Below are positions 567-5,683 of a stretch of DNA of 5,933 nt, piece by piece (the first letter of the stretch is position 1; each line of letters begins with the position of its first letter). This DNA comes from Candidatus Mcinerneyibacteriota bacterium. Its GTDB lineage: Bacteria > AUK180 > JAQVHJ01. Made by a program: the position numbers and the translations under genes. The stretch is taken from positions 1 through 5,933 of the forward strand of contig DAOVMD010000215.1 in assembly GCA_030630935.1 (NCBI GenBank), given 5' to 3'. Below the pieces are notes generated by a model. It was not told the origin of the DNA and did no database searches. It saw only the letters and a program-made list of their open reading frames with translations.

Positions 567-645
567 CTCCATATTAAGTAAACAACTGTTTTTTATTAAC
601 AGATTACTGCAGTCAAGCCCTTTGAACTTTCCAGGACGCAGGCTA

Positions 646-675
646 GATTTTGCTTCGCTGCGATGCGCAATGACA
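646..675. repeat. Extragenic palindromic repeat, copy A (CGCAATGACA type)
   Basis: This unit begins near GATTTTGCTTCGC and ends with CGCAATGACA (666-675). TTGC (650-653) pairs with GCAA (667-670) to close a hairpin. The same ten-base ending recurs exactly at 788-797. GC-rich units of this form, with a TTCGC or TACGC core and a CGCAATGAC end, are familiar as dispersed intergenic repeats in many bacterial genomes. Confidence 0.65.
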
Positions 676-718
676 CAGAACCACGCGCTTCGCTAGGGTT
701 CTGTGCACCGCAAATGAC
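674..718. repeat. Hairpin repeat between copies A and C, with degenerate CGCAAATGAC end
   Basis: CACAGAACC (674-682) pairs perfectly over nine bases with GGTTCTGTG (697-705). An inner mini-stem is formed by GCG (685-687) and CGC (691-693). The unit is followed by CGCAAATGAC (709-718), which differs from the CGCAATGAC ending of its neighbours by one extra A. It looks like a third, rearranged unit of the same repeat, inserted into or grown from copy A. Confidence 0.6.
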
Positions 719-724
719 GTTTTT

Positions 725-761
725 CCCTGTAAGCAGGGTTTATAAAAGGGAGCTTGCTCCC
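725..761. repeat. Paired short hairpins, possible weak bidirectional terminator
   Basis: Two hairpins sit side by side. CCCTG (725-729) pairs with CAGGG (734-738) and is followed on the plus strand by TTTAT. GGGAGC (748-753) pairs with GCTCCC (756-761) and is followed on the minus strand by TTTTAT. Each could act as a weak Rho-independent terminator in one direction. Since they lie inside the extragenic repeat cluster, they may simply be repeat parts. The inverted repeats are certain; termination is a guess. Confidence 0.5.
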
Positions 762-797
762 GGATTGCAGCGGTCACTACGCTCCATCGCAATGACA
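762..797. repeat. Extragenic palindromic repeat, copy C (CGCAATGACA type)
   Basis: ATTGC (764-768) pairs with GCAAT (789-793), and AGCG (769-772) pairs with CGCT (780-783) across a five-base bulge. The unit ends in CGCAATGACA (788-797), identical to the end of copy A. It is the last repeat before the promoter of the MEMO-AMMECR1 operon, about 35 bases upstream of its -35 box. Confidence 0.65.
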
Positions 798-832
798 AAT
801 AGCATCCATGTATACAAGCAGTCTTATATTTA

Positions 833-861
833 TTGACTTAAATTATTTAATATGTTATACT
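833..861 (+). promoter_or_regulatory. Strong sigma-70-type promoter of the two-gene operon
   Basis: The -35 box TTGACT (833-838) is separated by exactly 17 bases from the -10 box TATACT (856-861). A TG at 853-854, one base before the -10 box, adds an extended -10 element. Transcription should start near 868, giving a leader of only about 22 bases that carries the Shine-Dalgarno sequence. The leader is too short for a riboswitch, and I see no clear operator palindrome over the promoter. Confidence 0.75.
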
Positions 862-872
862 TATTATATAAG

Positions 873-880
873 AAAGGAGG
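873..880 (+). promoter_or_regulatory. Shine-Dalgarno sequence of the MEMO-AMMECR1 gene
   Basis: AAAGGAGG at 873-880 lies 9 bases before the ATG at 890. It is a near-complete anti-16S match and decides the start. An in-frame TAA at 869-871 rules out any longer N-terminus. Confidence 0.85.
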
Positions 881-889
881 AGAGTAATT

Positions 890-2401
890 ATGAGAAGAGA
901 ATATTTTTTAATTATTATCGTAAGTATATTATGTGCATTAATACCAACCCATACAGGAGGTGCTGTAGTGGGAGACACGTGTGAACCAGTTGTAGCTGGT
1001 CAGTTTTACCCGGGGACTGAGACTGAATTGAAGGAGATGATTAATAAGTTAAAGGATGCAGTCCCGGAAAATGTATTATTTCAAGGTCGACCTGTTGTAT
1101 TATTCTCTCCGCATGCAGGATATGTATATTCAGGTAATACTGCAGCATTTGGCTTTTATCAGATTCGAAATTTTAAGATTAAAACATTTATTATAATTGG
1201 TCCTACTCATAGAGTTCCGCTGAAGAAAGCATCAGTTGGAAATTTTAAATATTTCAAAACGCCCTTAGGTAAAGTTGAAGTAGATGTTGAGTTAGCAAAT
1301 AGAATAATAGATAAGGATAAGACCAAGTTTGATTTTAATTCCACTGCGTTTTTATATGAGCATTCAGTTGAAGTTCAAGTACCCTTTATCCAAAGTTTTT
1401 TTCCGGGGTCTAAGATAATACCCATTGTAATGCCGCAGGATATAGAAGTTGTTAAGGCACTTTCAACAGCGTTAACGGAAGTTATCGGTAAGCGGGAAGA
1501 TATCTTAATTATTGCGAGTACGGACATGTCTCATTTTCACAATTCCAAGAAGGCAATAGAGATGGATAAGAAAGCATTAAAACTTATTAAAGATCTTGAT
1601 TACGTTGGTTTAATTAAAAGCACGAAAGCCGGGGAATGTGAACTCTGCGGCTTGGCTCCTGTCCTTACAGCAATTTTAACTGCGAAGTCTTTGGGAGCCG
1701 GGAATGTAAAGATATTTCAATATACACATTCCGGAATTGTATCAGGTGATAACAAGCGTGTCGTCGGTTATTTTTCCGGAGTAATATCTAAAACTATTGA
1801 TACAAAGGAGGAGTCGAAGGATATGATTCTAAATGATAAACAAAAAAAAGAAGTTTTAAAGATAGCCAGGGAAACGATCGAGACTTACCTTAAAACAGGA
1901 AAGGAACCTGATTTTAATATTACGGATTCGAAACTGAAAGAGAAGTACGGATGTTTTGTAACATTGCATAAAAATAAAAATCTACGCGGTTGTATTGGTC
2001 ATTTTGAAGCTGACACCGCACTTCATGAAATTGTAATGAAGATGGCGATTCAAGCATCTTTACATGATCCGAGATTCCCAGCAGTTAAACTAAGTGAAAT
2101 GAAGGATATCGAGATAGAGATTTCTGTTCTTTCACCGCTTAAAGAAACGGATTCACCTCTTTCAATAAAGAAAGACGTTCATGGAATTTATATTCAGGAG
2201 AAAGGCGGGTATCGCGGGGGGACATATCTTCCGCAGGTCTGGAGTGAGCATTTTTCAGATAAGGATGCTGAATATTTCTGGGGACATCTATGCAAGTTCA
2301 AGGCCGGTTTTCCATCAGATGCCTGGAAAAAACCTGAGAAATATAAAATCATGATTTATAGTGCAGAGGTTTTCTCTGAAGGAGAACTTTTAGATAAGTA
2401 A
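890..2401 (+). CDS. Exported MEMO-AMMECR1 fusion (AmmeMemoRadiSam proteins B and A)
   Basis: This 503-residue protein joins two families that usually occur as separate partners. Residues 1-25 look like an export signal: a basic start (Arg2, Arg3), a hydrophobic core at 6-18 and small residues around Gly23-Ala25. Residues 34-300 form a MEMO domain (relative of class III extradiol dioxygenases) with AGQFYP (36-41), PHAGY (74-78), GPTH (104-107), EHSVEVQ (157-163), STDMSHF (210-216) and CGLAP (253-257). By comparison with human MEMO1 the metal-site residues His75, His107 and Cys253 are kept, as are Asp212 and His215. Residues 316-497 form an AMMECR1 domain with LRGCIG (365-370), HDPRFP (392-397) and LPQV (447-450). 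Both domains appear intact and full length. The biochemical role of the AmmeMemoRadiSam set is not settled; the usual radical SAM partner is not visible here. The gene has its own promoter and strong ribosome binding site and precedes the DUF4175-like gene by 6 bases. Domain calls are firm; export is a prediction. Confidence 0.92.
   Translation: MRREYFLIIIVSILCALIPTHTGGAVVGDTCEPVVAGQFYPGTETELKEMINKLKDAVPENVLFQGRPVVLFSPHAGYVYSGNTAAFGFYQIRNFKIKTFIIIGPTHRVPLKKASVGNFKYFKTPLGKVEVDVELANRIIDKDKTKFDFNSTAFLYEHSVEVQVPFIQSFFPGSKIIPIVMPQDIEVVKALSTALTEVIGKREDILIIASTDMSHFHNSKKAIEMDKKALKLIKDLDYVGLIKSTKAGECELCGLAPVLTAILTAKSLGAGNVKIFQYTHSGIVSGDNKRVVGYFSGVISKTIDTKEESKDMILNDKQKKEVLKIARETIETYLKTGKEPDFNITDSKLKEKYGCFVTLHKNKNLRGCIGHFEADTALHEIVMKMAIQASLHDPRFPAVKLSEMKDIEIEISVLSPLKETDSPLSIKKDVHGIYIQEKGGYRGGTYLPQVWSEHFSDKDAEYFWGHLCKFKAGFPSDAWKKPEKYKIMIYSAEVFSEGELLDK
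1806..1825 (+). promoter_or_regulatory. Possible internal translation start for a free AMMECR1 domain
   Basis: Within the MEMO-AMMECR1 gene, AGGAGGAG (1806-1813) is followed after 9 bases by an in-frame ATG (1823-1825), codon 312. This falls in the charged linker between the two domains. Initiation here would give a 192-residue protein, the normal size of a stand-alone AMMECR1, and it would lack the export signal. The purine run also encodes Lys-Glu-Glu, so it may be chance. It may instead be the relic of a formerly separate AMMECR1 gene. Confidence 0.35.
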
Positions 2402-2407
2402 ATTATT

Positions 2408-5400
2408 ATGAAAAACTTTTTAAAATTAATCAAACATTTTCAGAGATCAATTATATTTGAACATTTTTTCTCTGGGATAGTTTTCTTTATTATTTCTGTA
2501 GAGACTTCGATACTGTTAAGTTATCTATTTGATTTAAGGTTCACCCGTAATATCGTATTTTTCGGATTTATAATTGGTTTTATATTAGCAGTTACGGAGT
2601 TTGTTTTTTATTTATTAAAGTTCTCATCCAAGTTTCGAGTAGCAAGATTTATTGAGCGGAGGAGTCCGGAACTTAAGGATTATGTTACCTCAACTCTTAC
2701 TCTACCGAAGGTTTCCGGGAAATATTACTCAGAGGTAATAGTAAAAAAAGCAATTGATAATGCAATTAAAAAAATCAAGGAAGTAAACCCATTATATAAA
2801 GTAGGGGAGAAGTCTTTATTATTAAATAAGGTTTCAATCTTAATTATAATTTTATTTTTAATAACATCTATTATAATTCCCTTTGATTCTTATCAGCGTA
2901 TTGAATATTTAATGACCGGCAGGGTTTTTCTGAAACCTAACACTAATATTTTATTATCGAAATACGGCGGGCGGATAATTGAAGGGGAAGATTTCACATT
3001 TCAAATAATCCCCTTGAAACCTGAGCTTAAAAGAGTAATTGTCTATACAAGCGAAATTGATGAGTCCCGTGAAATATTCCGAAGACTTGAGAATGTTGAT
3101 ACAAATATAAAGATTGTGATTCCAAATTGCCGGGAGGACTTTGAATATGAACTTAAAGCTGACGGTCAGGAATTTGGACCGTATCAGGTAAATATTGTTA
3201 AGCGCCCAGAAATAGAAAGTATATCTGTTTTAGTTTCACCACCGAAGTATACAAACATGAAATCTTTTCATTCGAAATCAGGAGATTTAAAGGTTCCTCA
3301 AGGTAGTATTCTGAATATGGAAATTACCTTTAATAAGGAATTGTTAAAAGCTGATTTAAAGAAAATTGGGCTTAGTAATATTAAGAATGGTAAAGTTGAG
3401 AAGAAGCAAGTCCAGTTTGAATTTAAGGTAATCGAAAATTATTCATATCAGATAATTGCATTTGATACAGATGGGATTAGTTTTGAATCTAATATTATGA
3501 ATATTGAGGTTATCCCGGATTCTGCTCCTATTGTAAAACTAACTAAACCCGGGAAGGATCTATCGTTAAAAAGTATTGAAATGAAAATTAAGCTTGAGAT
3601 ATTTACAGAAGATGATTATGGATTGAAAGAAGCACGCCTTGTTTTTTTTATATCTGATCATGATCAAAAATACCAAGTACCACTGAAGACATTCAGGAAT
3701 CAGGAGCAATCCGGGGTGATTACATTTAATTGGCCATTATCAATCTTAGATATTAAGCAGGAAGATTATATAACTTATTATGTCGAAGTATTCGATAATG
3801 CTGATTTATCTAACCGGGGTGTCTCAAAAACCTATACAATTTCATTTAAGAATACAAAGGAACAGATTGAAGAATTTATTTCGGAACAAGACGATATAAT
3901 TACATCACTTGAAAAGATTAAGGAGAAAAGTGAAGCTATTCAGCTTGAACTCAATGCTCTGATGAGAAAGTATGAGCTTCAAAATGAAGATAAGCTGACC
4001 TGGTCTGATAAAAAGAAATTACAGGAACTTTTAGATAGGGAAGAAGAATTGATTACAGAAGCTGCAAAATTACGTGAACAGTTAAAGGAAGCTGAAGAGA
4101 AATTTGATTTTGAATCGGATACTTTTCAGGATACACAGGAGAGGCTCGACAAGGTAAAGGAGTTATTTGATCAGCTACTTGATGAGAAGCTGAAGGAGAT
4201 GATGAATAAACTTAAAGATATGCTGAATAAATCTAATAATTTAGATCTGCAGAAAAAAAATGAACAGCTCAAGATGGATTCGAAAATGCTGCAGATGATG
4301 CTGGATAGAATGATAAAGGAACTGGAGCGTTTGAAACTGGAAAAGACCCTTGAGGAGTTGCTTGTAAAGACCGACGATTTAATAAAAAAGGAAACCGAGA
4401 TTCAGGATAATATTGGTAAGGAGAAAGGGCTTGAGAAGGACCAGGAGAAAATTACAGATGGTATAAAAGAGTTAGAGGAAGATCTTAAGGAATCAATTGA
4501 ATCATTAAAGGAGTCGCAGCCAGAGGTTGTTAAAGATCTCGAAAAAACTCAGGCTAATTCCGATTTTAAAGGAATGCAGAAAGAATCTAAAGACCTGGAA
4601 AATAGTCTAAAGCAAAATCAAAATCAGAAATCTAAACAACAAGCTGGTTCTATGAAGAAAGAGCTTGAGCGGTTAAGAAAGAATTTACGCAGTGATTTAG
4701 ATAATTTAAAGATGCGCGGGAATGAAGGTAAGATAGATTTAATAAATTTACTTATTCGGGACGGGATTGAAAACTCCAGGTATTTAAAAGAACTGAATCA
4801 GCTGATTGAAGATAATCAGTTTAATATTACAAAACATTCCAGTCTTGCGAAGGATGACATATTAAATTCAATAGATATCTTATCCCGGCAGCTGGGGAAT
4901 TATTTAGAATTATTAAGGGAATTAAGTATGTTGACAATAAAACTTGATTCGAAGATGAGTGATAGGATTCGAGCATCAAGAAGGTCGCTTGAGACAGCAT
5001 CTGTGCAATTTTCCTTTGGTAAAGTCAGCCCGAGTAAAATGTTTAATTTGCAGGCATATCGCGGAATTAACCTGACTATCTTAGACTTGATGAAATTAAA
5101 AAATGAAATTCAGTCATGTGCAAGTTGTGACAGCCAGGGTATGGAACAATTATTAAAGATGCTTGAGAAATTATCTAAGAAACAAGGTGACCTAAATGAG
5201 TACCTGGAAAAGCTGGCTGAACAGATGAAGAAGAATCATAAACCCGGACCATCTGAAAAGGAACTATTTGAACAGATGCAAAGGGAGCAGCGAGCAATTA
5301 GAGAAGCTCTTGAGAAATTAAATAAACAGTTACAAGAGATGAAGGATAAGAAAAGACTTCTTGGAGACATGGATAAACTCGGAGATGATATGAAGGATGT

Positions 5401-5683
5401 TGAAAAAAAGATTGCAGAACTTGATATCGGACCTGATACACAGAAAAAACAGAGAAAGATTCTACAACGAATGCTTGATATCCAGAAATCTATTCATCGT
5501 CAGGACTTTGAGAAAAAGAGAAAGGCAGAACTTGCCAGGCAGAAGATGCTGGATATAGAAAAATTAGCACCAAAATTAAAAGAGAGTGAATTATTTTTAG
5601 ATTTTGAAAGTTTCTGGAATGAGAATTATCCCGAGATATATAAAGAATATTTGAAGTCATACTTCGAGAATTTAAATCAATGA
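2408..5683 (+). CDS. Large membrane-anchored coiled-coil protein, DUF4175-like
   Basis: This 1091-residue protein has three hydrophobic segments near the N-terminus (about 22-41, 48-71 and 142-159). The basic N-terminus and the Lys/Arg-rich 72-141 loop suggest these lie inside, leaving residues 160-1091 outside the membrane. The loop carries ARFIERRSPELKDYVTS (79-95), a typical feature of DUF4175-type proteins ('IE...PEL.D...S'). Residues 175-480 look beta-rich, with DSAPIV (371-376), EDDYGL (401-406) and YYVEVFDNA (457-465), as in that family's extracytoplasmic repeats. Residues 484-765 are long Lys/Glu/Leu-rich coiled coil. A more mixed helical region spans about 770-900, and a second coiled coil about 910-1055 includes ILQRMLDIQKSIHRQDF (1018-1034). 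A Cys-x-x-Cys (904-907) interrupts it. The function is unknown; relatives are often found near MoxR/DUF58/von Willebrand-type envelope gene sets, none of which is in this window. The ATG is forced: in-frame TAA lies 6 bases upstream. No good Shine-Dalgarno precedes it, so coupling to the upstream gene is likely. Confidence 0.75.
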   Translation: MKNFLKLIKHFQRSIIFEHFFSGIVFFIISVETSILLSYLFDLRFTRNIVFFGFIIGFILAVTEFVFYLLKFSSKFRVARFIERRSPELKDYVTSTLTLPKVSGKYYSEVIVKKAIDNAIKKIKEVNPLYKVGEKSLLLNKVSILIIILFLITSIIIPFDSYQRIEYLMTGRVFLKPNTNILLSKYGGRIIEGEDFTFQIIPLKPELKRVIVYTSEIDESREIFRRLENVDTNIKIVIPNCREDFEYELKADGQEFGPYQVNIVKRPEIESISVLVSPPKYTNMKSFHSKSGDLKVPQGSILNMEITFNKELLKADLKKIGLSNIKNGKVEKKQVQFEFKVIENYSYQIIAFDTDGISFESNIMNIEVIPDSAPIVKLTKPGKDLSLKSIEMKIKLEIFTEDDYGLKEARLVFFISDHDQKYQVPLKTFRNQEQSGVITFNWPLSILDIKQEDYITYYVEVFDNADLSNRGVSKTYTISFKNTKEQIEEFISEQDDIITSLEKIKEKSEAIQLELNALMRKYELQNEDKLTWSDKKKLQELLDREEELITEAAKLREQLKEAEEKFDFESDTFQDTQERLDKVKELFDQLLDEKLKEMMNKLKDMLNKSNNLDLQKKNEQLKMDSKMLQMMLDRMIKELERLKLEKTLEELLVKTDDLIKKETEIQDNIGKEKGLEKDQEKITDGIKELEEDLKESIESLKESQPEVVKDLEKTQANSDFKGMQKESKDLENSLKQNQNQKSKQQAGSMKKELERLRKNLRSDLDNLKMRGNEGKIDLINLLIRDGIENSRYLKELNQLIEDNQFNITKHSSLAKDDILNSIDILSRQLGNYLELLRELSMLTIKLDSKMSDRIRASRRSLETASVQFSFGKVSPSKMFNLQAYRGINLTILDLMKLKNEIQSCASCDSQGMEQLLKMLEKLSKKQGDLNEYLEKLAEQMKKNHKPGPSEKELFEQMQREQRAIREALEKLNKQLQEMKDKKRLLGDMDKLGDDMKDVEKKIAELDIGPDTQKKQRKILQRMLDIQKSIHRQDFEKKRKAELARQKMLDIEKLAPKLKESELFLDFESFWNENYPEIYKEYLKSYFENLNQ

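Follow-up and report, generated by a model that had tools for sequence, protein, structure and literature searches.

The question raised by this locus is what a MEMO-AMMECR1 protein would do outside the cytoplasmic membrane, and with which partner. Conservation of MEMO and AMMECR1 reaches from archaea to humans, where MEMO1 is the human form of the former and AMMECR1 is a disease gene. The window analyzed here is a stretch of 5,933 nucleotides that makes up the whole of contig C411 in a 3.16 Mb genome (G000) of 471 contigs; because it is an entire contig, the wider locus is readable only in relatives. A sequence-only reading of this DNA had proposed that a MEMO-AMMECR1 fusion and a DUF4175-like coiled-coil protein, encoded side by side, may form an undescribed envelope system.

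The MEMO-AMMECR1 and DUF4175 genes

Only two long open reading frames are present in the window, both on the plus strand (Table 1), and the six-base spacing claimed for them was borne out. A shared promoter, as claimed for them, is plausible from a site upstream, but promoter-like sites in the window are not above chance (20 compared with 24.5 expected from shuffled sequences). A good Shine-Dalgarno sequence precedes the MEMO-AMMECR1 gene (ORF1); the only one ahead of the DUF4175 gene (ORF2) is distant, consistent with translational coupling. The upstream non-coding DNA consists of dispersed repeats, and its 161-base stretch at window positions 640-800 has 49 matches in the genome.

Table 1. 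Positions of the genes, protein features and candidate expression signals in the window.
Feature	Position	Strand	Basis
Promoter-like site TTGACT-17-TATACT, extended -10	833..861	+	Consensus scan, 10/12 matches
Shine-Dalgarno AAGGAGG for the MEMO-AMMECR1 gene	874..880	+	Sequence
MEMO-AMMECR1 fusion gene (ORF1), 503 aa, predicted exported	890..2401	+	Pfam, NCBIfam, G001 orthologue, AlphaFold model
N-terminal signal MRREYFLIIIVSILCALIPTHT, about residues 1-22	890..955	+	Hydropathy; Sec/lipoprotein signals on orthologous class MEMO proteins
MEMO domain (residues 32-297)	983..1780	+	PF01875, TIGR04336, MEMO1 fold
MEMO metal-site residues H75, H107, H215, C253	1112, 1208, 1532, 1646	+	Motif and alignment
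AMMECR1 domain (residues 323-495) with LRGCIG motif, C368 at 1991	1856..2374	+	PF01871, TIGR04335
Intergenic gap ORF1/ORF2, 6 bases	2402..2407		
DUF4175 protein (ORF2), 1091 aa, membrane-anchored coiled coil	2408..5683	+	PF13779, 37.6 bits, cut-off 27.3
Region with three TM segments (residues 15-41, 49-67, 142-160)	2450..2887	+	Hydropathy
Extended coiled-coil-like stretch, charged and mainly helical (about residues 484-1052)	3857..5563	+	Sequence; low-confidence model helices

Both genes are real, as judged by Pfam matches to Memo, AMMECR1 and DUF4175 and by orthologues in the same order in the sister genus (G001), where the ORF1 orthologue (503 aa) is 64% identical and the ORF2 orthologue (1087 aa) is 59% identical. 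The two ORF1 domains (Memo 204 bits, AMMECR1 162 bits) lie behind a hydrophobic segment that comes after MRRE. NCBIfam names them AmmeMemoRadiSam proteins B (MEMO) and A (AMMECR1), with scores of 257 bits against TIGR04336 (protein B, cut-off 26) and 160 bits against TIGR04335 (protein A, cut-off 99).

The metal site of human MEMO1 consists of H49, H81, H192 and C244 (human numbering), which we take to correspond to H75, H107, H215 and C253 of ORF1. The AlphaFold model of ORF1 (mean pLDDT 93) shares with iron-bound human MEMO1 the fold (Z 34.8, 266 residues, 21% identity; human MEMO1 entries PDB 3bcz, 7kq8, 7l5c) and the four metal-site residues, whereas the MEMO domain of ORF1 is predicted to be exported and is fused to AMMECR1. 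LigB-type extradiol dioxygenases also share the MEMO-domain fold (Z about 17-20), but at only about 11-18% identity. The C-terminal domain resembles the AMMECR1-type proteins PH0010 (1vaj) and MM0484 (1zq7) in fold and sequence (Z 23.5 and 21.0; 36-40% identity), although in ORF1 this domain sits in a putatively exported fusion.

Both products had been expected to lie outside the cytoplasmic membrane, and the ORF1 signal and the ORF2 membrane topology predict the same. Export signals here and below were called by simple rules and by eye, not by SignalP. The N-terminus of ORF2 is positively charged, so its long C-terminal part is predicted to be outside; the structure model of ORF2 (mean pLDDT 44) was too poor for use.

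DUF4175 adjacency within and outside the class

The MEMO-AMMECR1/DUF4175 adjacency was found in 7/7 sampled genomes of the window's class (G000-G006) and is not peculiar to one genome. MEMO, AMMECR1 and DUF4175 are consecutive in every genome of the second family (G002-G006); among these, only G004 has the first two as a fusion, and in G002, G003, G005 and G006 AMMECR1 is an ORF of its own without a signal. The AMMECR1 domain has one match per genome in the seven class genomes, always at the MEMO locus, and that in the window is the sole one in G000. A TPR-type protein is encoded upstream of the class locus in G002 and G004, where this was checked by family scan. The four metal-site residues are kept in G000, G001 and G004-G006 and mostly lost in G002 and G003, whose MEMO proteins (L027 10105-10992, L028 13943-14830) retain the signal and have lost three of the four. 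Two further MEMO genes of G000 (L043, L044; contigs C215, C235) have no signal and are unpaired with any AMMECR1 gene.

The separate MEMO and AMMECR1 genes of G005 and G006 have a stop-start overlap at a run of adenines, A10 in G005 (L030, about 4890-4940, minus strand) and A9 in G006 (L031, about 2590-2645, plus strand). Insertion of a single base at these runs, or a shift of -1, would join the frames into a fused exported protein, which we offer as a lead only. Runs of at least nine adenines occur about 0.19 (G005 locus) and 0.08 (G006 locus) times per kb per strand, and the lead is weakened by the lysine-rich tail at the run and the AT-rich genomes.

Outside the class, no DUF4175 gene was found in 42 fused MEMO-AMMECR1 loci (357 kb, searched with a profile from 18 members), and neither MEMO nor AMMECR1 was found in 11 DUF4175 loci searched with the MEMO-AMMECR1 protein of the window. 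On these 42 and 11 loci we rejected DUF4175 as a general partner of MEMO-AMMECR1, and a general pathway joining the two families is not supported. The DUF4175 loci outside the class have, where checked, a DUF4159 gene upstream and a TPR protein gene downstream; DUF4159 lies at L032-L034, whereas it was not seen adjoining DUF4175 in the class genomes. In one such DUF4159-DUF4175-TPR cluster (G009, L032 8786-19050), a MoxR-type AAA gene lies about 3.5 kb past the TPR gene.

The best reading is that DUF4175 is a lineage-specific operon neighbour of MEMO-AMMECR1. ORF2 would then be an envelope protein of the DUF4159/DUF4175/TPR-cluster type that turned into an operon partner in one class, and it may position the MEMO-AMMECR1 enzyme in the envelope. 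The only DUF4175 protein in the literature searched was AdvA of Acinetobacter baumannii, an essential cell-division protein with two predicted TM helices (PMC7481262). AdvA and ORF2 have the DUF4175 family name in common, and the portion of that article consulted mentions no MEMO partner for AdvA.

A radical SAM partner with export signals

A radical SAM gene had been suggested as something to look for in the wider locus, and one was found in G000 on another contig than MEMO-AMMECR1. It encodes a TIGR04337 protein (protein C) at G000:C380:618-1712(-) that scored 414-417 bits (cut-off 220), and all three AmmeMemoRadiSam components (TIGR04335/04336/04337) are above their curated cut-offs in this genome. 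The protein begins MKKTIKLFLTVCSVLILISQFPFQVIGGSREASYYQKL and carries a predicted signal peptide, MKKTIKLFLTVCSVLILISQFPFQVIGG. Every class genome has at least one TIGR04337 gene away from the MEMO-AMMECR1 locus. Signals are also seen on the radical SAM proteins of G001, G004 and G005, each with a second copy that begins at or near the domain, and G002, G003 and G006 have the signal-less form only. The degraded MEMO metal site of G002 and G003, together with the lack of an exported radical SAM protein there, is consistent with joint loss. In G006 (91% complete), the exported MEMO is intact and no exported radical SAM protein was found.

The survey sample comprised 145 genomes, mostly one per family, and TIGR04337 was above cut-off in 99/145. 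Nearly all fused MEMO-AMMECR1 proteins in these genomes have a lipobox or a Sec signal (exceptions L181 and L187), and radical SAM N-termini are of two kinds, short ones and longer ones that bear a Tat or Sec signal. Per genome, 25 had both the fusion and a signal-bearing radical SAM protein, five had the fusion only, six had the exported radical SAM protein only, and 64 had neither (G064 excluded). The fusion and the exported radical SAM protein thus co-occur (Fisher's test, p = 2.9e-13), although the test assumes independent genomes and the sampled ones are not entirely so. The exported pair is present across many unrelated families. The fusion lies beside a signal-bearing radical SAM gene in Omnitrophota-labelled, Vermiphilus-labelled and further MAGs (L047, L049, L051, L054), and fusion and radical SAM genes are also adjacent at L046 and L057 and in G007, G035, G041, G048, G051, G060, G061, G075, G100 and G105. 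Tat signals were seen at L055, a Phycisphaerae MAG, on the fusion, and at L057, a Zipacnadia MAG, on the radical SAM protein.

The radical SAM tree used the core domain and excluded the N-termini, from which the export labels were set. Three proteins that the rule had missed (L172, L211, L236) were set as exported by eye; L214, with a masked N-terminus, and L046 (for the tree alone), with a cut-off one, were labelled exported from context; and L243 and L286 were set as not exported because, although flagged by the rule, they have a plausible start after the hydrophobic stretch. With these labels, a single clade of 46 contains 41/41 enzymes labelled exported (support is 91 for a 43-member part and 38 for the full clade), and the label changes five times on the tree compared with 35.8 times in shuffles. 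The five non-labelled members of the clade include a small subclade with short N-termini. The exported clade shows no variation in the CxxxCxxC motif or in eight further cysteines, four in an N-terminal and four in a C-terminal set, indicating that it is under catalytic constraint. In the MEMO and AMMECR1 trees the fusions cluster, yet they form no single clade.

The neighbours of exported and other radical SAM genes also differ. A gene for a membrane spermidine-synthase-like (SpdSyn-like) protein occurs at 17/40 exported and 0/89 other radical SAM loci (p = 1e-10), and genes for a Tat-signal DUF362 protein and a DsbD_2-like protein each occur at 6/40 and 0/89, in a comparison where some exported loci have longer stretches, which favours neighbour finds there. 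Neighbour clusters were named from one family-scanned member each, and those that were antisense shadows of core genes were ignored. Two sets of TM helices flank the spermidine-synthase domain of the SpdSyn-like protein, which in G035 ends in a NapH/Fer4_5 ferredoxin domain. In G000, a membrane gene of this type overlaps the radical SAM gene; the spermidine-synthase match is weak or absent in the window's class, so class members were placed by similarity to the rest. Near non-exported radical SAM genes, by contrast, a look at the sequences named ApbE-, NusG_II-, Hpre_diP_synt_I- and polyprenyl-synthase-like neighbours, hinting at quinone or isoprenoid metabolism. Such neighbours are found at L219, L233, L235, L249, L251, L253, L261, L265, L280 and L285.

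A probable extracytoplasmic AmmeMemoRadiSam module and alternative readings

From these sequence data, we put at roughly two in three the probability that ORF1 supplies the exported B and A parts of an AmmeMemoRadiSam module which lies outside the cytoplasm and includes the exported radical SAM protein. MEMO-AMMECR1 and the radical SAM enzyme would cooperate on the outer side of the cytoplasmic membrane, where the radical SAM enzyme may yield a radical or a radical-modified product on which the metal-bound MEMO and AMMECR1 domains would act. SAM and electrons would be brought across the membrane by clade-specific neighbours, for which the SpdSyn-like protein and the DsbD_2-, NapH- or DUF362-type proteins are candidates, and a polyprenyl- or quinone-type lipid is our guess for the substrate. 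Compared with the usual AmmeMemoRadiSam copies, which start directly at the domain, proteins A and B are fused here and all three domains are predicted to be extracytoplasmic; the exported clade has membrane and redox neighbours instead of those found near cytosolic copies; and the one-cassette arrangement, seen often but not always, gives way in the window's class to a radical SAM gene on another contig. More tentatively, and at somewhat less than even odds, the same picture may extend to a widespread system of a radical SAM enzyme exported by Tat or Sec and a usually lipid-anchored MEMO-AMMECR1, with SAM and electrons supplied by dedicated SpdSyn-like and DsbD/NapH/DUF362 carriers.

Radical SAM chemistry is thought to require the cell interior, and we know of no described system that supplies SAM or low-potential electrons outside the cytoplasm; if the enzyme truly acts there, both must be available there. 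This supply problem would vanish if the hydrophobic N-termini were membrane tethers of the radical SAM protein, and perhaps of MEMO-AMMECR1, with the enzyme domains cytoplasmic near SAM and ferredoxin, and the G000 signals are indeed Sec-like, without a lipobox and with putative cleavage. However, the positive charge of the N-termini predicts an outside location for the C-terminal domain, and many fusions carry lipoboxes and many radical SAM relatives carry RRxF Tat motifs, which are used only for export, so we consider tethering rather improbable. Against an exported module speak the five fusion genomes without a signal-bearing radical SAM protein, the signal-less AMMECR1 ORFs of G002, G003, G005 and G006, the case of G006, the subclade with short N-termini and the scatter of the fusions in the MEMO and AMMECR1 trees. 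In the window's class the two genes lie on different contigs, as would be expected if the exported MEMO-AMMECR1 acted alone, for example in metal binding or redox chemistry, and the co-occurrence came from common descent of a mobile set of genes. We give this about as little credence as tethering, since the genes are adjacent in many other genomes and catalytic residues are retained in both proteins.

A single functional unit of MEMO-AMMECR1 and DUF4175, with the coiled coil as scaffold or substrate, is a little less improbable than these two, and still unlikely. Their order is kept throughout the class despite about 20% DUF4175 identity between its two families and differing other flanking genes, but it also persists in G002 and G003 despite the degraded metal site, the linkage is confined to the class, and DUF4175 elsewhere neighbours DUF4159 and TPR genes. 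Our probabilities for the module, for the supply of SAM and electrons across the membrane and for this unit cover overlapping cases, and their total may differ from one.

As for novelty, Burroughs et al. 2019 is reportedly on the PCAD-Memo superfamily. PMC7159879 credits that work with the MEMO-AMMECR1-radical SAM association, and the name AmmeMemoRadiSam appears in five papers of the literature searched, with a single mention in each. No description of an extracytoplasmic AmmeMemoRadiSam was found in that literature, which did not cover Burroughs et al. 2019, nor anything relevant on exported radical SAM enzymes. PMC10924467, where Tat and a radical SAM gene are mentioned together, was set aside, as the gene is a mere neighbour there. 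The proposal of an undescribed system is thus narrowed: the MEMO-AMMECR1-radical SAM set is already known, and the export of a branch of it, including the radical SAM enzyme, looks undescribed. An extracytoplasmic branch with its own membrane and redox partners would narrow the possible substrates and yield testable gene sets.

In Brocadiales and G051 (L048, L050, L052, L141), a second, signal-less AMMECR1 gene directly follows the fusion, whose signal was seen in L048, L050 and L141, as though a separate copy served each compartment.
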